From: a virus
Length of the DNA stretch: 64,000 bases
Reading direction: 5' to 3' (one strand)
Virus record (IMG/VR): IMGVR_UViG_3300044961_000421
Location: 1 to 64,000 of that record
The translations under genes were made by a program, and so were the position numbers. Positions within the stretch are counted from its first letter, which is position 1, and each line of letters starts with the position of its first letter. Positions 12,355-63,722 of the stretch are shown piece after piece. Under the pieces are notes generated by a model. That model had not been told where the DNA came from and searched no databases. It was given only the letters and a program-made list of their open reading frames with translations.

Positions 12355-13281
12355 TCAGTCTTCTTCTGCCAATTTTCGGAATCTTGCTAATGCATCATCC
12401 TCTTCATCATCATCTTCTTCTACTTTTGGAACAGGCTTTTTCTTTATTTTCTTTTCCAAGATAGGTTTTTCATCTTCTCCTTTTTCCCACGGCACATCAT
12501 CATCATCTTTCGTTTCTTCTACTGTTCCAACGATTGAAGTTTTATTCCAAACTCTGTCATATTCTTTCTTCAATTCCTCATATGGTTTAAATAGAGAAGG
12601 TTTGACAAATTCAACAAGAGGGTATTCAGATTCCCAAATTGCTTTCAATTTTTCTTCATCACCATTTAGCAAAGGAGAAGGAGAATCGAAAGAAGATTTA
12701 ATATATGTTCTGTATCCACCCTGATTCTTGGAAATTTTCAGACGGAAATCGCTTCCTTCCCAAAAATCAAATATATTCACACTTTTTTCATTAGCAAATT
12801 CTGGAAGAAGCTTTTCGTTAATCTTATCAAATATCATTTTATTGAATTTGTATAAGAACACTTTTCCTTCATTTTCTGGCCTGCCCGGATCAGAAATCAC
12901 ATAAATGTTGCTATAATATACTAAATTACGTTTTCGCTCTCTCGCAATATTTTTATTTGCTTCAATGTTTGTGTTCCAAAGAAGATTGTTTTCTTCGCAA
13001 ACGGGGCATTCTTTTCCAATAGTGGTTGGGCAATTTTCTATATACCAACGATTACCCGGTCCCTTAAAAAAATGTCTCCATAAACGTTGCCAAGGAACAT
13101 CTTCTCCCTTCGGAGGAGGAAGGAAACGAATGATTGCGGAACCCGTCCCGGTCGCTTTATCATATTCGGGTTCCCAAAATCTAGGATCTGTTTGGAATGA
13201 TTTTGTTTCTTCTGATTTTTTCTTTACTTCTTCCAGAAATTTTGAAGAATTCTTTTTTAATGATTTAAAATCTGTTATCAT
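12355..13281 (-). CDS. Single-stranded DNA-binding protein, T4 gp32-like
   Basis: This is a 308-residue protein. It has a Lys/Ser-rich N-terminus, an OB-fold core with a zinc site of H70, C84, C92 and C95, and an acidic C-terminal tail (DDDEEDD) that in T4 recruits replication proteins. It coats single-stranded DNA in replication and recombination. It is downstream of gp59- and gp33-like genes, as in the T4 59/33/32 region, and its start overlaps the upstream ORF. Confidence 0.9.
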   Translation of the reverse strand: MITDFKSLKKNSSKFLEEVKKKSEETKSFQTDPRFWEPEYDKATGTGSAIIRFLPPPKGEDVPWQRLWRHFFKGPGNRWYIENCPTTIGKECPVCEENNLLWNTNIEANKNIARERKRNLVYYSNIYVISDPGRPENEGKVFLYKFNKMIFDKINEKLLPEFANEKSVNIFDFWEGSDFRLKISKNQGGYRTYIKSSFDSPSPLLNGDEEKLKAIWESEYPLVEFVKPSLFKPYEELKKEYDRVWNKTSIVGTVEETKDDDDVPWEKGEDEKPILEKKIKKKPVPKVEEDDDEEDDALARFRKLAEED

Positions 13282-13683: not shown

Positions 13684-14316
13684 TTAAGAATCGAGTCTCA
13701 TTAACTTTTCTGCTATCACTATTTTATATTTAGACGGATCTTTTTCCACAATTTGAATAACAAAAGGGAGTATTTTTCGAATATCATTAGAATATTTCAT
13801 CCAAATCACATTACTCTCATGTTTCTTATCCAAGAAATCCATCATACCTGTGAAATAATGGAGAATAGCCATTGATTCTTTTTTAAAATCATTTCCGATA
13901 ATAGCATCAATTATAATAGGAGTTTTTCCTGGTTCGGCGATAAATTGAGCACGAACCAATTCTTCTTCTGTTTCTATATAACCATATACAGATTCAATGA
14001 TATTCATTAATCTTTTACAATCCTGTTCAAATATATACAAAAGACTATCTTTTAACTTTTTCCAAGCAAAATAATTTTCATCATTAAATGTTCCAATCCA
14101 TGCCTTCGGATTTTCTTTCAAATTACCTACAAAATAATCCAATATCGTTTCTTTTGAATATTGAACAGCAAGTTTTTCAAAGAAATACTTATCATTCCTA
14201 AGAGAAAAATTATCTTTATCAAAACGAACAACACCCTTATATTTAACATAATCATATTTTGTAGTAAAATGTAATTTTAAAGCCAAATACATTTCATAAA
14301 CTTGAATCGCTGTCAT
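13684..14316 (-). CDS. DNA helicase loader, T4 gp59-like
   Basis: This is a 210-residue protein. VYEMYLALKLHFTTKYDYVK, NDKYFFEKLAVQYSKETILD and LKENPKAWIGTF align in order with T4 gp59. In T4, gp59 loads the gp41 helicase onto gp32-coated forks and D-loops. It overlaps the upstream gp33-like gene by 4 nt. Both partners, gp32 and gp41, are encoded in this window. Confidence 0.85.
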   Translation of the reverse strand: MTAIQVYEMYLALKLHFTTKYDYVKYKGVVRFDKDNFSLRNDKYFFEKLAVQYSKETILDYFVGNLKENPKAWIGTFNDENYFAWKKLKDSLLYIFEQDCKRLMNIIESVYGYIETEEELVRAQFIAEPGKTPIIIDAIIGNDFKKESMAILHYFTGMMDFLDKKHESNVIWMKYSNDIRKILPFVIQIVEKDPSKYKIVIAEKLMRLDS

Positions 14317-14540
14317 AACATATGTAACCTCTTCGCTTCATTTTCTAGCTTGCTTTTAAGAGTACCGACGACCAACGGTTTTATATCTTCAAAATCCAAT
14401 TCTTTCATTTCGCAATATTTAATAATTGCTTCCATGTAAGAAATCTTTTTTTGGAGGACCATTTCTTCTATTAAGAGAGAAAAGTCTACCCTATTAGTTC
14501 TAAGTCGTTCAAAAATTGTAGTTTTGTCTTCTATTTTCAT
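14313..14540 (-). CDS. Late-transcription coactivator, T4 gp33-like
   Basis: This is a 75-residue protein. SLLIEEMVLQKKISYMEAII, then KYCEMKELDFEDI and LKSKLENEAKRLHML, matches the gp33 family, which tethers RNA polymerase to the sliding clamp for late transcription. Its presence fits the TATAAATA late promoters found elsewhere in the window. Its own promoter (14547-14575) is sigma70-type with the leaderless layout. Confidence 0.8.
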   Translation of the reverse strand: MKIEDKTTIFERLRTNRVDFSLLIEEMVLQKKISYMEAIIKYCEMKELDFEDIKPLVVGTLKSKLENEAKRLHML

Positions 14541-14546
14541 AACATT

Positions 14547-14575
14547 ATTATAGCATATTTTCTTCTATTTGTAAA
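14547..14575 (-). promoter_or_regulatory. Sigma70-type promoter, leaderless layout
   Basis: TTTACA (14570-14575), 17 bp, TATAAT (14547-14552), 6 nt, ATG at 14540. Confidence 0.75.
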
Positions 14576-15020
14576 ATAAATGATCATCTATTTTTATTGT
14601 AAATTTTTGTTTTCTCATCCATTTTGCTTTTGCGTATGTTGCATGAAAATATAAAGACCCATCGGTAAAATCATGATAATTATTATAATTTTTGATCATA
14701 TCTTTTGCTATTTCATAAGATTCGTTCCAATTTTTGTTTGACGGAATTGTGTTACCTTTTACTTGACAGTACCAATCAAATTGGCATTTATTACCGAGTT
14801 TATGGGAAATTACTTCACATAAACTCTTATTAAATTTTAAGGATCTATTAAAAATCACAAAAGCTACCGCTTGTTTTCCTTTTTTCGATTGATTACCTGC
14901 TTCAAAGTAAATACCTTTTGCCAAACATAAATTATTTTCTTCACTATATTCATATTTTTTTGGTATTACTGGCATCACCATACAGGCTGTTAAAATTATC
15001 AGTCGTATTAGTTTTGTCAT
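14565..15020 (-). CDS. SleB-type cell-wall hydrolase, probable lipoprotein
   Basis: This is a 151-residue protein. The N-terminus is a signal peptide with a lipobox-like LTAC (about residues 10-13). The rest matches the SleB/Hydrolase_2 family: NLCLAKGIYFEAGNQSKKGK, AVAFVIFNR, CQFDWYC, a DGSLYFHA segment and the final HLFYK. These enzymes cleave peptidoglycan. It may be an endolysin or an exported wall-modifying enzyme. A GGTAGAG ribosome-binding site precedes the start, and the gene lies just after the tmRNA terminator. Confidence 0.8.
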   Translation of the reverse strand: MTKLIRLIILTACMVMPVIPKKYEYSEENNLCLAKGIYFEAGNQSKKGKQAVAFVIFNRSLKFNKSLCEVISHKLGNKCQFDWYCQVKGNTIPSNKNWNESYEIAKDMIKNYNNYHDFTDGSLYFHATYAKAKWMRKQKFTIKIDDHLFYK

Positions 15021-15036
15021 CTCTACCCCTTAAATG

Positions 15037-15068
15037 GAAAAAGGGAAGTCCGAAAACTCCCCTTTTCG
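15037..15068 (-). terminator. Intrinsic terminator of the tmRNA gene
   Basis: An 11-bp stem (AAAAGGGGAGT with ACTTCCCTTTT, one G-U pair) is followed by a T-run on the minus strand. Confidence 0.8.
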
Positions 15069-15300
15069 GTTTTTCTGTTGCCGGGAATCCAAACCCCGCT
15101 TTACCGTTTTTTAGGCGGCAAATGCATAAGCAAAGTTATTGTTTGCTTTTATTTGTTTGCTCTTTTTTACAAGGGTGCTCCTTGAATGCCTCCAGTTACC
15201 TCACAAACTCTGTCGAAACCTTTTCACCCCCATATGTTAGTTTGGTGGAGGTGCTGGGAATCGAACCCAGGTCCAAAGTTGCTACTTCCCCTTCAACGGA
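15069..15300 (-). ncRNA. ssrA: Circularly permuted (two-piece) tmRNA
   Basis: On the minus strand the acceptor piece comes first. It has a T-arm (CTGGG, TTCGATT, CCCAG) and a 3' end CACCTCCACCA at 15243. A short spacer follows, and then the 5' coding piece beginning GGGGGTG (15231-15225) and GGTTTCGAC. GGGGGTG pairs with CACCTCC with a G3-U wobble, the alanine identity element. The tag frame (15146-15111) starts at GCA and encodes ANNNFAYAFAA, then TAA. A terminator follows. Swapped order with a spacer is the permuted tmRNA layout known in alphaproteobacteria and some cyanobacteria. Outer ends are approximate. SmpB is not in the window. Confidence 0.9.
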
Positions 15301-15302
15301 CA

Positions 15303-16040
15303 TTATCTATTATTTAGATTCATTTTTTGCATATCATTCACATACAAAAACAGAACATCAAAAACCATTTGATTTATCCTGTTGAAATAAGGTTCTTTAG
15401 GTAATTCCGTTATTTCATATGCTTTTTTACACAATGAATATTCATTTTCAATTATGTCTTTTATTTCCTGTAGGTTAAAATACCCTTTCCTTACATTTTT
15501 AAGAAATTCAACATCATAAGTTCTTTTTACGAGAACGGTACCGTATCGTAAAATCTCTGTTGCCATTCTCAACAACCTTATGGTATGATAAGCATACTTT
15601 GTATCGTATCCAAATTGATCTACCAATTCCTTTCTCTTCGATCCCATTTTTCCAGTCAATTCACCAGTCATACGCTTATATTGGGAAGTTGCGTATCCTG
15701 TAAATGTGTGAAAAACTCTCTGAGAAATGAAATCATTTCTGTAATCATACATTTGTTTTCCATAACGGGGATCAAATGTTATATTTTCAGAGTAAAGTGC
15801 AACAAAAACATTTGGATTTGCCTTTAAACAGAGATTTACAAAATTTCTGAATTCATAAGATGTCATATCCGAATCTTCTGTTAGTTTCTGTTTGTTTGAT
15901 GTTCCTTTTAGACCAAGATAATGGAATGGGTGTTCCAAAAATACATGGATGAAATCTTCATCCGATTCTTCAGTATGAGTTCCATATCCTCTTGAACCAA
16001 CTAATGATGTAAAAATTATTTTTTCTTCATAATCTTTCAT
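15303..16040 (-). CDS. RlaP-type nucleotidyltransferase (COG3541-like)
   Basis: This is a 245-residue protein. LVGSRGYGTHTEESDED (residues 13-29) holds the GS and D-x-D residues of the polymerase-beta nucleotidyltransferase fold. The helical remainder fits the RlaP/YcgL-type family, often found beside RNA ligases in RNA-repair cassettes. The substrate is unknown; tRNA or RNA end repair is likely here given the ligase and CCA enzyme. It lies directly upstream of the tmRNA gene. Promoter at 16047-16075. Confidence 0.8.
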   Translation of the reverse strand: MKDYEEKIIFTSLVGSRGYGTHTEESDEDFIHVFLEHPFHYLGLKGTSNKQKLTEDSDMTSYEFRNFVNLCLKANPNVFVALYSENITFDPRYGKQMYDYRNDFISQRVFHTFTGYATSQYKRMTGELTGKMGSKRKELVDQFGYDTKYAYHTIRLLRMATEILRYGTVLVKRTYDVEFLKNVRKGYFNLQEIKDIIENEYSLCKKAYEITELPKEPYFNRINQMVFDVLFLYVNDMQKMNLNNR

Positions 16041-16046
16041 ACTTTT

Positions 16047-16075
16047 ATTATATCATAAAAGAAAAGGGGAAGCAA
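16047..16075 (-). promoter_or_regulatory. Promoter with -35 inside a terminator stem, leaderless layout
   Basis: TTGCTT (16070-16075, part of the terminator hairpin), 17 bp, TATAAT (16047-16052), 6 nt, ATG at 16040. Confidence 0.75.
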
Positions 16076-16100
16076 GGATATTTGCTTCCCCTTTTCTTTT
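16057..16100 (-). terminator. Intrinsic terminator
   Basis: A 19-bp perfect stem (16057-16075 with 16082-16100) with a 6-nt loop lies downstream of the 16116-16982 gene. Confidence 0.9.
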
Positions 16101-16115
16101 TTTCAGACATTTAAT

Positions 16116-16982
16116 TTACATTTTAGACAATTCACGAACCAATTTCAATATTTCTTCCAACATTTTCCTATCCGCTTCCGTAAAAGATCCTGATCCAGGA
16201 ACAGGAACATCCGAGCGGTTCAAATATACCCCAAAAGGAGTTCTCGAAAATGTTTCTCCAGGATATAATTGGCGTACAGGTGTTCTCATTACGTTTGTAG
16301 ATGTGGTAATAACTTGTGCTGGTTTCCAATTAGGTTCTTCTCCTGTCAGATCCCATGTACCAGGATAACCAATACCATTTCTATTCTTTTGTTCATACAA
16401 AATGCCTGCTACAACTCTTTTTTGTCCAAGTACAATTTCCCACACATTACGTTTATCTGTTTGGCAAACTAATTGCCTTCCAGAAAACGTTCCTCCTACG
16501 GAAAATGCATCAGCAACGGTACCACCCATCTCTTTTGCTAATTCTTCCGCCACAACTCTAGTTGTTAAAAAGGTAGGATTAATTGGAGCCGGCGGAATGG
16601 GAAATCCAGGAAACGAAACCAAACAATCTGAAGGTTCGACAACATATTTTTCATATCTATATTCCCCTGGTAAATTTAAAGATGCTGCTTCTTCTTTTGT
16701 TAAAGTTAAATTGATGAATTGGAGAGTGTTTAGATTTAATGTTGAATAAGTAATTGTGGGAGTTTTTACAGTCAAATCAAACCAAGTCTTAACTGGCTTT
16801 TTTGCATCAAATGGAGGAGCTTGTACTCCAAACTCAGCTTCAAATGATGTGCGAGTATAATTTTTAAAAATATAGATTTCAGAAACACTATATGTTGCTT
16901 CGTTTGGTTGTGGTTTAAAAATCGGTGCTTGAGCAAATGTTATTCCTACAATTGAAAAAAATAAAATAAAAATATTTTTCAT
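16116..16982 (-). CDS. Secreted protein of unknown function
   Basis: This is a 288-residue protein. A clear signal peptide (hydrophobic residues 4-17, predicted cut after AQA) is followed by a Pro/Thr-rich, beta-strand-like body and a charged C-terminal helix. I recognise no domain. It overlaps the upstream zinc-ribbon gene by 4 nt, has an AGGAG site, and ends at a strong terminator. It would be exported by the infected cell to the periplasm or surface. Confidence 0.7.
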   Translation of the reverse strand: MKNIFILFFSIVGITFAQAPIFKPQPNEATYSVSEIYIFKNYTRTSFEAEFGVQAPPFDAKKPVKTWFDLTVKTPTITYSTLNLNTLQFINLTLTKEEAASLNLPGEYRYEKYVVEPSDCLVSFPGFPIPPAPINPTFLTTRVVAEELAKEMGGTVADAFSVGGTFSGRQLVCQTDKRNVWEIVLGQKRVVAGILYEQKNRNGIGYPGTWDLTGEEPNWKPAQVITTSTNVMRTPVRQLYPGETFSRTPFGVYLNRSDVPVPGSGSFTEADRKMLEEILKLVRELSKM

Positions 16983-22849: not shown

Positions 22850-23951
22850 TTACTCTCTCACCTTCATTAATTTGAACATTTTTTTTGGTGGGTGTGTTCT
22901 CACCCAATGTTCAACATTTTTCACTTTTCCATCATATAGTGCAAAAAATGCTGATTTAAACAAATTATATTTAGGTGTTTGAAGAACAAGAGCAAAATCC
23001 TTCCTTGTTTTAAACACCATTTGTGTCAATTCTTCCCACTGTTCGGAAAGATGATATATCAGGTTTTCATACAAACCATGTATATTTTTGAATGATCTTT
23101 CCAAATCAGGAAAATATGTCAATATTTCGGATGTTTCTCCTTTTTGTATCAATTCGACTATTTTTTCTTCATTAAGAGTATCTTTTAGGTGATGAAGAAT
23201 TACATACTTTGGAGATTTTATTTTTAAACGATTATAATACTTATCAACAAGAACAAAACCTTCCTGCTCATTTGGATTTAAGTTTTTGGACATTTCTATG
23301 ACATCGTTTACCGTTTGTACCGGGAATTCCCGGACAGGATTTAATTCTTGAAATTTTTGCACATCCAAAGAAACACCCGTTTTGTTGTGGCGTACACCTA
23401 TTAATGTCAATTTTCCTTCATTATCTCCCTGAACGACAACTATTCTGTTATATTTTGATTCCAACTCGAAACAATAAGTATATGATTCATCCAATACTTT
23501 CAATACTCCATCATTTTGGTGGGTAAATATTTTCCAAAATAGTTGACTAAATGTAAAGTTTTCGTTACCCATATTTCCACCCGCATCAGGAGATCCCTTT
23601 GACGCAACATGCCACTCGTTATCATAGTGATATAGTATCATCAAAGAACCATCAAGTTTTTCTTGAACCTTCATCGAAGAAAAATCAAAATTTTCTGTTT
23701 CAAATTCTCCATAATTAAAGAATCTATCAAACGGGCGCGCAACAACTTCATAATTATTTTCTTCATCGAGTATTATACCACGCAATTCACAAACTATTGG
23801 ATAATTTCTCACCTTTTGAGATTCCAGCCCATAACAAAACTGAAGAAGGTTGGGGTATTTCGTATGGTGCTTCGCAAAAACACCATATTGTTCTTCTAGC
23901 TTCGAAAGAGCATCTTCATTTTTTTAAAAGAAATTTTTGTAACTCAAGCAT
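22850..23951 (-). CDS. RNA ligase, T4 Rnl1-like, with an apparent 1-nt frameshift
   Basis: The body has ligase motif I EKLDGS, a CFELESKYN segment, and a GFVLVDKYYNRLKIKSPKY segment carrying later motifs. Conserved sequence continues upstream of the longest ATG/GTG frame (HTKYPNLLQFCYGLESQK) back to a run of seven A (23925-23919). Reading that run as six joins it to an ATG at 23951 (MLELQKFLLK) and puts the nucleophile Lys at about residue 98, close to K99 of T4 Rnl1. So the gene is either truly shifted, expressed by slippage, or carries a homopolymer sequencing error. It probably repairs cleaved tRNA. It neighbours a phosphatase and Pnkp remnants. Confidence 0.8.
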
Positions 23952-32347: not shown

Positions 32348-34276
32348 TCATTTTATTGGGCACACACCGGACTCACAATTAAGATCCTCAATATTTCCGG
32401 ATCCAATATCAAAAGTTTTGGTGGGTGTTTTCAATCTTGATAACATAAGATTATATCTTTGTTCATCTATTTCTTCATATGGTGCTTGTCTGAATCCGTG
32501 ATCGGAATGAAGGAGAAAGGAAACAGATTTGATCGAATTTTCATAATTATCCTTCATCCATTTTTGGATATCTTTTAATTCTTCTTTTTTATAATAGACT
32601 GTTACAGAAACAGCATTATCAGACCAAACAGTTTGAATTTTCTTTACCAATTCTAATTGTTCCACAGCTTTCATATTTTTCGAGAGAATTGTGTTTTCAC
32701 TATATTCACAAGGAAATTCAATAATAACTGTATTTCTATCTTCAGTACCATCAAAATTTTTCAGATATTCTATATGATAATTCATTTCTCTCAAAAATGA
32801 TACGAGAGGATCTGAAGAAGACATCCGTATTCTACGAATAAAATATCTAGCGTATCCCGGATGAACACCTGGTGTTGAGCCAGCAAGAATGGAGATTGTT
32901 CCACTAGGTTTCACTGTTGTTAATTTAATTGATTCAGGTAATTTGTTTTCCTTTGAAAATTGTTTATCATATTTTCTCAATTCTTTATATACATCATCGA
33001 GCCATTCAATTTTTTCTAACGATTGGCATATACCAGAAATTCCTAAACCTATTCTCATGTTTTTATGTACGATATCATTTGTTTCTTTGTGGATAAAAGG
33101 TAATTTACAAATTGCCTTTTGTGTTTTATAGATCAATTTTGCTGCTTCAATTAATTCCTCTTTTGATTCAATATTATTTAAGAAAATTTCTGATAAATTA
33201 CAACATTCATGGTCTGCGAGAGTAATTTCCCCACAAGGATTTAATACGATACAATTATCTTTTCTTTCTTCTCCAAGACGACCATATTTTTGAGAGAGAG
33301 GGAGATTAAAAAATCCATAAGGTTCTCCGTTTCCTTTATAACCATCCCAAACAGAATCAGAAATTTGGTCATATGAATCAGCACCAATCGTATTGTTACT
33401 CATTGCTCTCCAGTTTGGAATGTTTCCTGTATCCCATCGCTTTGCTCTTAGGAAAAGAAAATCATCAGGATCACCAACAGCAATTTCCGCCGAACGTCGA
33501 ACATTACCAGCAACTACAATTGATCCAATAATATTACAAATATCTAAAACATCAATGGAACGTAATTTCTTCCCTTCTCTTGATTTTATCACATTACATA
33601 TTTTTTCTATTCCATCAACAAGAATACCTGGTCCAGAAGCGGTACCACCAAATCCTTTTATCTTTTCTCCATATCCTCGAATAAGAATCGTAGAATAAGT
33701 AAATGATTCTCCGTTATAGAAGAAGGCATCAAGAGTATGTTTTAACAATCTCACCCAACCCTCTCGTGAATCTGGTACAATAAAATCGGCATCTTTTGTG
33801 GGTAAATGTGTGATAACAACATCTTTTTTAATTTTAGGCAATTCATGTACATCTTCTCGTTTAACAGAGAATCCTACACCACCGCCTAACATTAAGTTTT
33901 CGAATAAGAAACAAAAATCACTAGTATCTTTCATCGCTAATCCCCAACAATTGAGTAGAGAATTTGCTCCAAATCTATCAACTGTCGAAGTTCCTAGTTG
34001 CCATAGCATTCTACCGGCATAAAGGCATTTGAGATTAAACATTAAATCAAATAATCTCTCTGCTTCCTCTTTCGTGTAATTCGCACCAATTTTTTGAGCA
34101 CCTTCAATACATCTTTGTAATGTATCTACCCACTCTTCTGTTTTACCATTTTCCAATTCTCTCGCATACGTTCGCTTATAAACTATGTAACCGATATTTC
34201 CGAATCCCCATTTTGGATTTCTTTTTCTATAACTCTCCAAAAAACTAGGAGAAAATTTAACAAATGATTCTGTCAT
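32348..34276 (-). CDS. nrdJ: Adenosylcobalamin-dependent ribonucleotide reductase (class II)
   Basis: This is a 642-residue protein. NCWG with C110, NPCGEITLADHECCNLSEIF with the C348/E350 radical site, TVKPSGTISILAGSTPGVHP and a C-terminal redox pair (C634, C639) match monomeric class II enzymes of the Lactobacillus RTPR type. It makes dNTPs using host B12 and needs no separate small subunit. It lies next to thyX, so the two form a nucleotide-supply pair. Confidence 0.85.
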   Translation of the reverse strand: MTESFVKFSPSFLESYRKRNPKWGFGNIGYIVYKRTYARELENGKTEEWVDTLQRCIEGAQKIGANYTKEEAERLFDLMFNLKCLYAGRMLWQLGTSTVDRFGANSLLNCWGLAMKDTSDFCFLFENLMLGGGVGFSVKREDVHELPKIKKDVVITHLPTKDADFIVPDSREGWVRLLKHTLDAFFYNGESFTYSTILIRGYGEKIKGFGGTASGPGILVDGIEKICNVIKSREGKKLRSIDVLDICNIIGSIVVAGNVRRSAEIAVGDPDDFLFLRAKRWDTGNIPNWRAMSNNTIGADSYDQISDSVWDGYKGNGEPYGFFNLPLSQKYGRLGEERKDNCIVLNPCGEITLADHECCNLSEIFLNNIESKEELIEAAKLIYKTQKAICKLPFIHKETNDIVHKNMRIGLGISGICQSLEKIEWLDDVYKELRKYDKQFSKENKLPESIKLTTVKPSGTISILAGSTPGVHPGYARYFIRRIRMSSSDPLVSFLREMNYHIEYLKNFDGTEDRNTVIIEFPCEYSENTILSKNMKAVEQLELVKKIQTVWSDNAVSVTVYYKKEELKDIQKWMKDNYENSIKSVSFLLHSDHGFRQAPYEEIDEQRYNLMLSRLKTPTKTFDIGSGNIEDLNCESGVCPIK

Positions 34277-41031: not shown

Positions 41032-42165
41032 TTATTTAGATATTATTTTTAACAAATCTGAAGGGAAATAACCATAAGTAATTTCACCTTTTTCTGAAAG
41101 GTGCTCATATTGAACAGGAACACCTTTTTTTATTTCCGGTGTTGGGAAAATCAACACAGTACATTTATCTTTTTTCATTATTAGATTATTATTTTTATCT
41201 GTTCCAAAGTGTTTCCAGCCTTTTTTGATTAAAAGTTGTTTCAATCTACCAGAAAAACTAATAATGGTTTCTTCTTTGAGATTCTTTTTTAACCAATTGT
41301 CATCAAAAGGTGATACTTTTTCACCATGAAAAGTTAAACCAAATTTTGGAACAGGTAATTTATCAATACTTTTTCTTTTGTTCCATTTATATGCAATTGT
41401 CGTATGTTGTTTAAATTCTGGATATTTAAATTCTGCACCGGCTTTTTTGGCTCTTTCATATTGTTTCTCTAAGTGTTTGTTTTTAAAGGTCAAAGCGAGC
41501 ACGTCTTTATTGGGCCCCAACAATTCCCATTTATAAGTTTTCGGATCAATATTCACTTTTCGTTTCGTCGGTTTATATTTTATTTCATTCTTTGTGGAAA
41601 GGACCGTGGTATGCATCTTATCCTTTGGGGTATAATTTTTAATTTTATACTTTTTAGCAAATTTTTCCAATTCTTCAGCAGATTTAGGATGCATTCCTAA
41701 AGAAGAGTATAATCCCGCTTCAGATACAACATAATTCTTGTCTAAATCCCAATTGATTCTTTTCCTTTTTAAAACTGGTGTAGTATTAGAATAAAGACCA
41801 ATGTTGGCACTTTCAGGAGAATACCATTTTCTTCCTTCCTTTTCGCGTATTTTAATTTTTCCGCTTTCACCCATCATTTTTTTAATCGCTTGTGCTTCTC
41901 CTTTAATATTATAAAGATGGGCACCATCTAATCGAATACCCTCTTTTAATTTAATGGCATTAAAAATGGATTTATCATTCAATTTTCCTGTTTTTTGTAC
42001 TATTCCGTGACTCATTTTGTGCCACTCATTTCCACCATAATCAATGAGAAAAGTATCTTTTTTATTATTCCTCCACGTTTCATGTTCCTTTTCTTCATCA
42101 TTTTTTGGATCTTCCTTTTTAAAACCAAGCGAAGAAAGATATATTTTTATAAATCTTTGTTTCAT
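41032..42165 (-). CDS. Acb1-like 2H phosphoesterase inside a larger protein
   Basis: This is a 377-residue protein. Residues 145-285 carry two H-x-T motifs (H185-T-T187, H254-T-T256) in the context LYSSLGMHP, KMHTTVLST, and AKKAGAEFKYPEFKQHTTIA. This resembles the T4 Acb1 family, which degrades CBASS cyclic nucleotides. Here it is flanked by a Lys-rich N-terminal region and a C-terminal domain (RLKQLLIKKGWKHFG and on), so it is much longer than T4 Acb1. It is transcribed from a TATAAATA late promoter 6 nt before the ATG, which is odd for an early-acting counter-defence gene. Confidence 0.7.
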   Translation of the reverse strand: MKQRFIKIYLSSLGFKKEDPKNDEEKEHETWRNNKKDTFLIDYGGNEWHKMSHGIVQKTGKLNDKSIFNAIKLKEGIRLDGAHLYNIKGEAQAIKKMMGESGKIKIREKEGRKWYSPESANIGLYSNTTPVLKRKRINWDLDKNYVVSEAGLYSSLGMHPKSAEELEKFAKKYKIKNYTPKDKMHTTVLSTKNEIKYKPTKRKVNIDPKTYKWELLGPNKDVLALTFKNKHLEKQYERAKKAGAEFKYPEFKQHTTIAYKWNKRKSIDKLPVPKFGLTFHGEKVSPFDDNWLKKNLKEETIISFSGRLKQLLIKKGWKHFGTDKNNNLIMKKDKCTVLIFPTPEIKKGVPVQYEHLSEKGEITYGYFPSDLLKIISK

Positions 42166-47762: not shown

Positions 47763-49187
47763 TTATTTACTGGATCTTATCACATTTAATGCTAATTCAA
47801 TTGCTTGTTTTTTTGAAAGTGATGGGTTTTCGATTGCTTTTTCTAATATTCGTTTCTTAATTTTTCCAATAAGTGGTCCTTTAGCACCAAGAGAAGCAAT
47901 TTCGTTGCCGTCCAATATGGATTTTGTATTCAAAATTGAATTAATATCCATTTTTTCTATTCTTTTACGAATTTTATCTATCTGTTTTGGCATCGAATGT
48001 GCATCAGCGTGGGATATATTATCAGCATGGATTAATTTAAGTGCTGGTTCGAGCATATCGGAAACACGATAAATGAATTTTCTCAATGATTTATCAGAAA
48101 TTTGGTCTCCTTCAGGACCAGCAGATTTTAAATCCATGTGGTAATTTATTAATTTTTGTACCTTTTCAATATCACTATTGGAATATTTTAGTCTCTTCAT
48201 GATTTCAGCAGCAATTTTTGAACCTACAGAGGCGTGACCAATAAATTGAATTTTTCCATCTTTTTCAGTTCTCGTTATTGATTTCCCGATATCGTGAAAA
48301 AGTGCTGATAACCTGAGTATTAATTCTGTAGGTACTGCATCCAAAACATTTAATGTATGCTTGAAAGCATCATGCTTATGAAATTTGTTTTGTTGTAGTT
48401 TATGTAATTTCTCCAATTCAGGAATCGTATATTTAAGAATTCCTGTAATTCTAAACATACGAATCGCTTTTGATGGTTTTTCTAAAACCAATATTTTATT
48501 CAATTCATCCTGTATTCTCTCCGAAGAAATGTTTTTCAATTTTTCTGCATTCTTTTTTATTGATCGGATTACAGAAAGTGGTAAATCAAAATTGTATTTA
48601 AAAGCAAATCGGATTGCTCTCAGTATACGCAGAGGATCTTCGCTAAAAATCCAATCCGGATTCCCTGTTGTTTGAATTACTTTTTTATTTAAATCCTTTA
48701 TAGATCTTCCTGTTAAATCGAAAATTTCACCGGTCGTTAGGTTTTTAAAAAGAGCATTAATCGTAAAATCTCTTCTGAAAGCATCATCTTCAATCGTACC
48801 AACAGAAACGATTGGTTTCCTAGAACCCTGTTCATATTTTTCTTTTCTTGGAGCGACAAATTCAACGTCAATATCACCAGATTCTAATTTTAATGTCAAT
48901 TTTGCCGTTCTGAATCTAGGAAAAATTACAGGATTTGAATCCTTTTTATAAATACCAAGTTTTTTTGCTATGAATGTAGCAACCTTAATACCACCTTCGA
49001 TCCCGTGCCCATCTACAACTAAATCGACATCCTTACTCCTTAATCCGAGAAGATTATCTCGAACATATCCACCAGCAATAAATACTTTATTATCATATTT
49101 ACTACCTCGAATTACAGAGGCAATTAGCTTGATTGCCTCTTCCGCCTTTATTGATTCTAATAAAAAATATTCTTTTATGTTTAACAT
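47763..49187 (-). CDS. CCA-adding tRNA nucleotidyltransferase with HD domain
   Basis: This is a 474-residue protein. GGYVRDNLLG (39-48), KDVDLVV, FRRDFTINALF and EDPLRILRAIRFAFKYN are the class II CCA/poly(A) polymerase motifs. HDIGKS and GHASVG around residue 300 form an HD hydrolase domain. All phage tRNAs here already encode CCA, so its use is probably repair of tRNA 3' ends, of both phage and host. Confidence 0.9.
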   Translation of the reverse strand: MLNIKEYFLLESIKAEEAIKLIASVIRGSKYDNKVFIAGGYVRDNLLGLRSKDVDLVVDGHGIEGGIKVATFIAKKLGIYKKDSNPVIFPRFRTAKLTLKLESGDIDVEFVAPRKEKYEQGSRKPIVSVGTIEDDAFRRDFTINALFKNLTTGEIFDLTGRSIKDLNKKVIQTTGNPDWIFSEDPLRILRAIRFAFKYNFDLPLSVIRSIKKNAEKLKNISSERIQDELNKILVLEKPSKAIRMFRITGILKYTIPELEKLHKLQQNKFHKHDAFKHTLNVLDAVPTELILRLSALFHDIGKSITRTEKDGKIQFIGHASVGSKIAAEIMKRLKYSNSDIEKVQKLINYHMDLKSAGPEGDQISDKSLRKFIYRVSDMLEPALKLIHADNISHADAHSMPKQIDKIRKRIEKMDINSILNTKSILDGNEIASLGAKGPLIGKIKKRILEKAIENPSLSKKQAIELALNVIRSSK

Positions 49188-61917: not shown

Positions 61918-62364
61918 TCACCTTTCACATAAAACATATTTTATTTTACCATGTACCAATGTCGTAAGTATTTCATATTTCACGACATTGTAATCTAATT
62001 TACCCAAGCCCGCGCCCAACATAGGAACAGCCACAGAATTGATATCCGTATATTCATCTTCTATTTCTAGCATCCTTTTCAAGATATTACGGACATAAAA
62101 AATGGAAGAATTATCTTTCCAATGATATTTCGTTGTTGCTAGATAGATTTTTTTAGGATGTTGTTCATAAGAATCAATAACATAAACATTTCCGGGTTCG
62201 AGAATCTTTTTTTCACAAAGATCCCTATAAAAAATGAATGTCTTCGGAAACCTATTTTTGAATTGTTTTGCGAGTCCGGTTCCCATTACTCCAACACAAT
62301 TTACGGGATTAACGAAAGCATCACATCCGCTATCGAAAATAGAACAAACAAATGTATTGATCAT
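61918..62364 (-). CDS. Macrodomain protein (ADP-ribose binding or hydrolase)
   Basis: This is a 148-residue protein. FVNPVNCVGVMGTGLAKQFK (17-36), LEPGNVYVID and VPMLGAGLGKLDYNVV are macrodomain signatures, closest in look to the DarG/ADP-ribose phosphatase type. It may remove ADP-ribose from DNA, RNA or protein and so oppose DarT-like defence. It overlaps the TROVE gene stop by 4 nt. Confidence 0.85.
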   Translation of the reverse strand: MINTFVCSIFDSGCDAFVNPVNCVGVMGTGLAKQFKNRFPKTFIFYRDLCEKKILEPGNVYVIDSYEQHPKKIYLATTKYHWKDNSSIFYVRNILKRMLEIEDEYTDINSVAVPMLGAGLGKLDYNVVKYEILTTLVHGKIKYVLCER

Positions 62365-63713
62365 GATATGGTTACCTTTTCATATTCGGTGATATATTTG
62401 AAGATATTCTCAGAATATCCAGAAATTGTGTGCCAACCGTTTTTATAACCAATCCCATTTTTGTAAGAAGCAACATTTATAATGTAATTATATTTTCCTA
62501 ATTTCTTAGCATTTTCCGGTTTTTCTTCAAATCCACCACAATCTTGTTCGTCTGTAAATACGATTACACGATCATAATTTTCTTGTTCCATTTTACTAAT
62601 ATGGTCCAAGCAACGAACTAGATAAATTCCACCGTATCCGGCTTCATTTTTTGAAATAAAAGAATGAATCGAAAATCCTCTTAAATGGGATGGAACCAAT
62701 ATTGTTTTATTTCCTGTGATATACATAGTTGAATCGTGGCACAATTCACGAGCAATAATCATTACAGAGGCACCTGCGTCAATTCGTTTAACATTCGTTT
62801 TTTTCGAAATTTTATATTTCATCGAACCACTTACATCAAGTACAATAAGTGTTTTCCCATTCAATTTTTCCATCTGAGAAATGGACTTAAACATCGCTTT
62901 TTCTAGAGATCCTGAAAAACGTGCTGTATATTTTGATGCTGTGATAAAACGGTAAGGGAAAATTTTCTCAAATGAACCGTTTTCCAAACGTTCTTTGATT
63001 AAATTGTAATCTACACCAGAAAATTTCATATTTCTCAAATTACGCAAAGTTGCGAGCCCACCCAATTTACCTTCTCTCAAAAGTCGCTCAAATGTTTCCT
63101 TTTTATCTTTTCCGGAAGATAGATTTGATTCCCATGTATCGGCTACTTCTAACTTTTTATTAGCGATTTTCTTAAAAAGATCCGCCTTCTTTTCATCTGA
63201 AGGTTTCGCATGACTGAGAAACAAAGCATCACGCAATTTAATAGGATTTTTTTTTCCTTGATACTTTGCGAAAGAATATTCGTTGAATTTATTAAACGCA
63301 TCCGAAAACGCCTTTTGTACGGAATGCGGAAGCATTTTCTTCCCATCTTTCCAATAAAGAGAAATAAATTCTCCAAATTCATCAGGACGTTGGATGATGT
63401 GGGCTAGTGTTTTGCGAATTAATTTGGAAGGTATCGGTTTTTTCTTACACAATTCTTTAATCATAAAGAGTGGAGTGTGACGAATATACATTTCATCACG
63501 GGCTTGAATAGCAATTTCTGCTACTTCTTCAGCATCCATCTTTTTGATTAAATTGGCCATAATAATTGAAGATTCAATTCCATTTTCATAGAATGTATCT
63601 TCAAAAAGTAAATTACAAAGAACAAGTCTCTTTAATTGTTCTTTGTTTGTTGGAGGGGTGGTCGCAATAGCGCCTTCATGTGTATATACATTACTCTTTT
63701 CTTCTAAAGACAT
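62361..63713 (-). CDS. TROVE/Ro60-like RNA-binding protein with vWA domain
   Basis: This is a 450-residue protein. Helical TROVE repeats (residues 20-270, with ARDEMYIRHTPLFMIKELC, GGLATLRNLRNM and FPYRFITASKY) are followed by a vWA-like domain with MIDAS LDVSGSM near 290 and IVFTDEQDCGG. This is the Ro60/Rsr layout. Ro proteins bind Y RNAs and misfolded RNAs and act in RNA quality control. AGGTG 6 nt upstream favours the ATG at 63713. It lies between the tRNA array and tRNA-Met. Confidence 0.85.
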   Translation of the reverse strand: MSLEEKSNVYTHEGAIATTPPTNKEQLKRLVLCNLLFEDTFYENGIESSIIMANLIKKMDAEEVAEIAIQARDEMYIRHTPLFMIKELCKKKPIPSKLIRKTLAHIIQRPDEFGEFISLYWKDGKKMLPHSVQKAFSDAFNKFNEYSFAKYQGKKNPIKLRDALFLSHAKPSDEKKADLFKKIANKKLEVADTWESNLSSGKDKKETFERLLREGKLGGLATLRNLRNMKFSGVDYNLIKERLENGSFEKIFPYRFITASKYTARFSGSLEKAMFKSISQMEKLNGKTLIVLDVSGSMKYKISKKTNVKRIDAGASVMIIARELCHDSTMYITGNKTILVPSHLRGFSIHSFISKNEAGYGGIYLVRCLDHISKMEQENYDRVIVFTDEQDCGGFEEKPENAKKLGKYNYIINVASYKNGIGYKNGWHTISGYSENIFKYITEYEKVTIS

Positions 63714-63722
63714 CCGCATCAC

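Follow-up and report, generated by a model that had tools for sequence, protein, structure and literature searches.

The 64,000-nucleotide stretch of DNA analysed here (the window), part of an 80.9-kb IMG/VR record that is classed as linear and is a fragment, carries on its minus strand, at 15305–15068, a real and intact tmRNA gene of the two-piece, circularly permuted form. The phage is T4-like, and tmRNA is the RNA by which stalled ribosomes are released and their incomplete proteins tagged. The gene is largely an ordinary example of an already known kind, the permuted phage tmRNA, since many related aquatic phages have such a gene in this position. As a well-supported case it joins the phage-encoded two-piece tmRNAs; what is new, modestly, is the conserved position of these genes across phages, together with an unannotated copy in Pelagibacter phage HTVC008M. 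Judging from sequence, family match, intact frame, covariation and conserved position, we consider it very probable that the gene is functional, with a fixed place upstream of gp33–gp59–gp32 in a T4-like aquatic phage lineage.

The gene is recognised by ARAGORN and by Rfam models alike. RF04321 (tmRNA_permuted) matches it from end to end (model positions 1–213 of 213) with 126.5 bits and an E-value of 2.4e-24, thus passing the gathering cut-off of 47 bits, and the best lineage-specific Rfam model is RF01850 (beta_tmRNA; 95.4 bits). ARAGORN calls the locus tmRNA* (permuted), with the tag ANNNFAYAFAA. The acceptor piece comes first, followed by a spacer and then the coding piece, as expected for members of RF04321, and the parts are as follows:

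about 15243–15305, minus: acceptor (tRNA-like 3') piece, holding the P2 5' strand, T arm, acceptor 3' strand and encoded CCA (RF04321 alignment)
15274–15280, minus: P2a 5' strand AACUUUG, pairing with CAGAGUU (7/7) and covarying in relatives
15254–15270, minus: T arm CUGGG-UUCGAUU-CCCAG, stem 5/5 paired (RF04321 alignment)
15243–15253, minus: acceptor 3' strand CACCUCC, discriminator A and CCA, the CCA being encoded at 15245–15243 (anchor parsing)
15232–15242, minus: 11-nt spacer, AACUAACAUAU, observed in position and predicted to be excised, as in known permuted tmRNAs
15225–15231, minus: acceptor 5' strand GGGGGUG, start of the coding piece, bearing the G3–U70 pair (RF04321 alignment)
15212–15220, minus: GGUUUCGAC, conserved D-like segment (RF04321 alignment)
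15206–15212, minus: P2a 3' strand CAGAGUU, whose first C is also the last base of GGUUUCGAC
15170–15184, minus: hairpin CAAGG-AGCAC-CCUUG, 5' of the tag (RF04321 structure line)
15111–15146, minus: tag frame ANNNFAYAFAA with stop UAA (ARAGORN, translation), codons GCA AAC AAT AAC TTT GCT TAT GCA TTT GCC GCC TAA
15068–15095, minus: 3' hairpin GGUUU...AAACC with a GNAACAGAA-like loop (beta_tmRNA alignment; likeness to relatives judged by eye in pairwise alignments)
15038–15067, minus: intrinsic terminator predicted from sequence, with a 13-bp stem, a UUCG loop and a U run within its 3' side

The acceptor stem GGGGGUG/CACCUCC is fully paired (7/7, G3–U70 included), and in the acceptor piece the bases GAC lie between AACUUUG and the T arm. 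A preliminary description of this DNA had already proposed a phage-encoded permuted tmRNA with this tag – acceptor piece before coding piece, ends pairing with the alanine G3–U wobble, T arm and D-like segment intact, tag frame closing with TAA ahead of a terminator – and all of this held up, as did the suggested check against permuted Rfam models and ARAGORN. Its coordinates, 15069–15300, were right to within a few bases; the minus strand and the P2 helix had not been given. Thermodynamic folding of the gene alone (z = −1.25) is uninformative as evidence.

Covariation in related phages, which the preliminary description had named as a test, is present. Anchors allowed 49 of the 59 permuted tmRNA sequences collected from viral contigs and phage records to be parsed, and in all 49 the fifth and sixth acceptor pairs and the first three T-stem pairs are variable yet paired; these counts are biased, because the search pattern fixed part of the acceptor and the parsing demanded at least four T-stem pairs and picked the best acceptor. 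The P2a helix, which joins the two pieces, played no part in the search pattern or in the choice made during parsing. In 35 distinct phage sequences, 218 of 245 P2a cells are paired (89%), whereas 5000 shuffled re-pairings averaged 69% and reached at most 77% – a comparison without the status of a formal probability, since the sequences are related by descent. P2a thus covaries strongly across relatives; the nearest of these, locus L103, keeps 7/7 pairs despite changes on both sides (AACUUUG/CAGAGUU becoming CGUUUCG/CGGGGCG). An artefact or chance match is ruled out as a reading of the gene, because the score exceeds the cut-off by a wide margin and covariation is seen in relatives.

The surroundings of the gene are those of a T4-like phage, as the preliminary description had held. 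On the minus strand the order is RlaP, tmRNA, hydrolase, gp33, gp59 and gp32:

15303–16040, minus: RlaP-type nucleotidyltransferase, directly upstream (PF10127, 1.1e-22; phrog_388), its stop (15303) overlapping the start of the RNA model
14565–15020, minus: cell-wall hydrolase (endolysin), downstream (PF07486)
14313–14540, minus: gp33 late-transcription coactivator (PF16805, phrog_254)
13684–14316, minus: gp59 helicase loader (PF08993, phrog_269)
12355–13281, minus: gp32 single-strand DNA-binding protein (PF08804, phrog_224)

Beyond gp32, gp33 and gp59, the T4-like assignment rests on gp43, a DnaB-like replicative helicase and baseplate genes. For the gp43 DNA polymerase the nearest public-phage matches are to cyanophages (about 43% identity), and for gp32 the top matches are to HTVC008M and cyanophages (about 53% identity). 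At the level of DNA, the locus showed no similarity to public phages at E 1e-5; the same search at E 10 returned mostly short matches to the tRNA-like part.

Permuted tmRNAs have been published for marine myophages, including Methylophilales phage Melnitz, and the same paper reports 402 phages with tmRNA genes in a 2021 collection, along with 53 predicted two-piece tmRNA structures (PMC9004378). The Rfam family RF04321 is described in a study whose list of phage tmRNA sequences, counting every form, runs to 79 (PMC11915505); the window gene shares with it the permuted order, the tag frame and the full-length model match, and differs in having only 11 nt between the pieces and in its tag ending FAA. 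Like the window gene, the annotated SsrA of Melnitz is permuted, belongs to a T4-like phage and lies upstream of gp33, gp59 and gp32 on the same strand (PMC9004378). Unlike it, the Melnitz gene has the tag ANDNYVPVDYALAA and a much longer spacer, without an endolysin gene between tmRNA and gp33. Melnitz is also reported to carry a glutamine riboswitch (PMC9004378), and an Rfam search of the window found none of that type. HTVC008M (KC465899.1) has an RF04321 match at 145161–145370 (90.6 bits; locus L039, 3162–3371) that is unannotated in the public record. There too the tmRNA stands upstream of gp33 and gp59, preceding a late transcription factor gene (146004) and then gp59, which starts at record base 1; it differs from the window gene in its best lineage model (alpha_tmRNA), its 49-nt spacer and its tag, ANFNEYALAA.

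The same arrangement recurs more widely. Among 80 gp59 loci gathered with a three-phage alignment, at least 14 carry a permuted tmRNA – a lower bound, because many gp59 loci are short and end early – and in 14 of 14 it lies upstream on the same strand, with a gp33 homologue between tmRNA and gp59. Locus L103 repeats the window's order of tmRNA, hydrolase, gp33, gp59 and gp32 (gp33 and gp59 identified by search, hydrolase and gp32 by eye). One sequence pattern finds 68 viral contigs with a permuted tmRNA, some of which may be prophage or host pieces. With a published example, an Rfam model and counts such as these, the earlier remark that a permuted tmRNA is unusual in a T4-like phage does not stand. 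The gene appears to be dispensable, in that most gp59 loci found show none, many of these loci being short. Very long predicted tags, of 27–33 amino acids, were called by ARAGORN on seven viral contigs (L054, L066, L068, L071, L073, L089 and L097).

That the gene is a host ssrA captured recently and carried as a passenger, and not resident in the phage lineage, is a reading we regard as highly improbable. Transfer of host genes into phages does occur, and the best lineage-specific match is the betaproteobacterial model: two-piece tmRNAs of that kind (RF01850; Rhodocyclales) have short spacers in some cases, although their tags are mostly ANDERFA(L/I/M/V)AA and their sequences are not close to that of the window. 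A looser acceptor/spacer pattern had 31 matches in bacterial genomes, those with titles naming a lineage being betaproteobacterial, mostly Rhodocyclales; the strict pattern had none in bacterial genomes. Against capture, matches in 399 genomes from one order and 399 from the phylum reached about 70 nt at most, and the position beside gp33–gp59 is conserved in divergent phages. In a tree of 79 tmRNAs, moreover, the window copy groups with L103 (98/77) and then with L010 and L014 (93/94), all from the gp33–gp59 position, and the sampled betaproteobacterial tmRNAs form a separate group; we use this local grouping alone, because the bootstrap was unsettled, some branches are long and many are weak. 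A stable home upstream of gp33–gp59–gp32 across divergent T4-like phages argues that trans-translation genes are kept for use and are not passing host DNA.

The tag itself retains the opening AN and the closing Ala-Ala, and its last five residues, YAFAA, are one residue apart from the YALAA of Escherichia coli. The FAA ending is unique among 51 distinct tags from phages and viral contigs (a small, selected sample), the tag of L103 ends in YAA, and an exact search of viral contigs for part of the tag found no match. The preliminary description had raised the idea that this ending steers tagged proteins to a fate unlike that of the host tag's products, which we judge very improbable. Changing the antepenultimate Leu raises the KM of ClpXP modestly, the final Ala-Ala, kept here, mattering most (PMC7652416), and bacterial standard tmRNAs include tags ending in AYAA. 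We infer from this that ribosomes are rescued in the ordinary way and that host proteases degrade the tagged products.

In the reading we favour, the gene would be transcribed from the minus strand up to its own terminator, and RNase P and 3' processing would excise the 11-nt spacer to leave two pieces, acceptor and coding, joined – as in known two-piece tmRNAs – through the acceptor and P2 helices. Host AlaRS would then charge the tmRNA via G3–U70. Its carrier to stalled ribosomes would presumably be host SmpB, since searches of the 80.9-kb record (a fragment) and of three complete phage genomes with such a tmRNA gene (HTVC008M, S-CAM1 and Melnitz) found no SmpB. There the tmRNA would append ANNNFAYAFAA, the ribosome being released at UAA, and host ClpXP would degrade the product through its ...YAFAA end. 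The likely benefit would be that ribosomes go on being rescued throughout infection, at a time when host RNA suffers damage or its synthesis has stopped.

The missing SmpB could also be taken to suggest an RNA whose main effect is to obstruct or redirect trans-translation in the host, for instance by sequestering SmpB, a role proposed for the tRNA-like RNA of mycobacteriophage DS6A; a phage RNA that is only tRNA-like does inhibit tmRNA in E. coli (PMC11915505, PMC4131195). Such a decoy would have no need of a tag frame, a stop codon or pre-tag structure, all of which are intact here, and we give this reading hardly any credence compared with active rescue.

Other genes for RNA metabolism lie in the window, all on the minus strand: a TROVE/Ro-like RNA-binding protein (62361–63722), two RNA ligases (22850–23812 and 41032–42165), the RlaP gene (15303–16040) and a CCA-adding enzyme (47763–49187), with 20 tRNAs. 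Together these look like an RNA repair or maintenance set; an Rfam search near the TROVE gene found no Y-like RNA. It is conceivable, if rather unlikely, that the phage tmRNA supplements or replaces that of the host and joins this set in maintaining translation when host defences cleave RNA, its tag being adapted to the phage's own host. RlaP and tmRNA as a single unit was an idea we dropped, because the pairing is absent from L103. At 16001–16200, where the RlaP gene starts, numerous low-scoring Rfam matches overlap one another on both strands; all are under the cut-off and probably reflect A+T-rich low-complexity sequence. Elsewhere in the window, this T4-like phage encodes a ribonucleotide reductase with an insertion domain of the B12-dependent type (32348–34276, minus; PF17975, PF21995).
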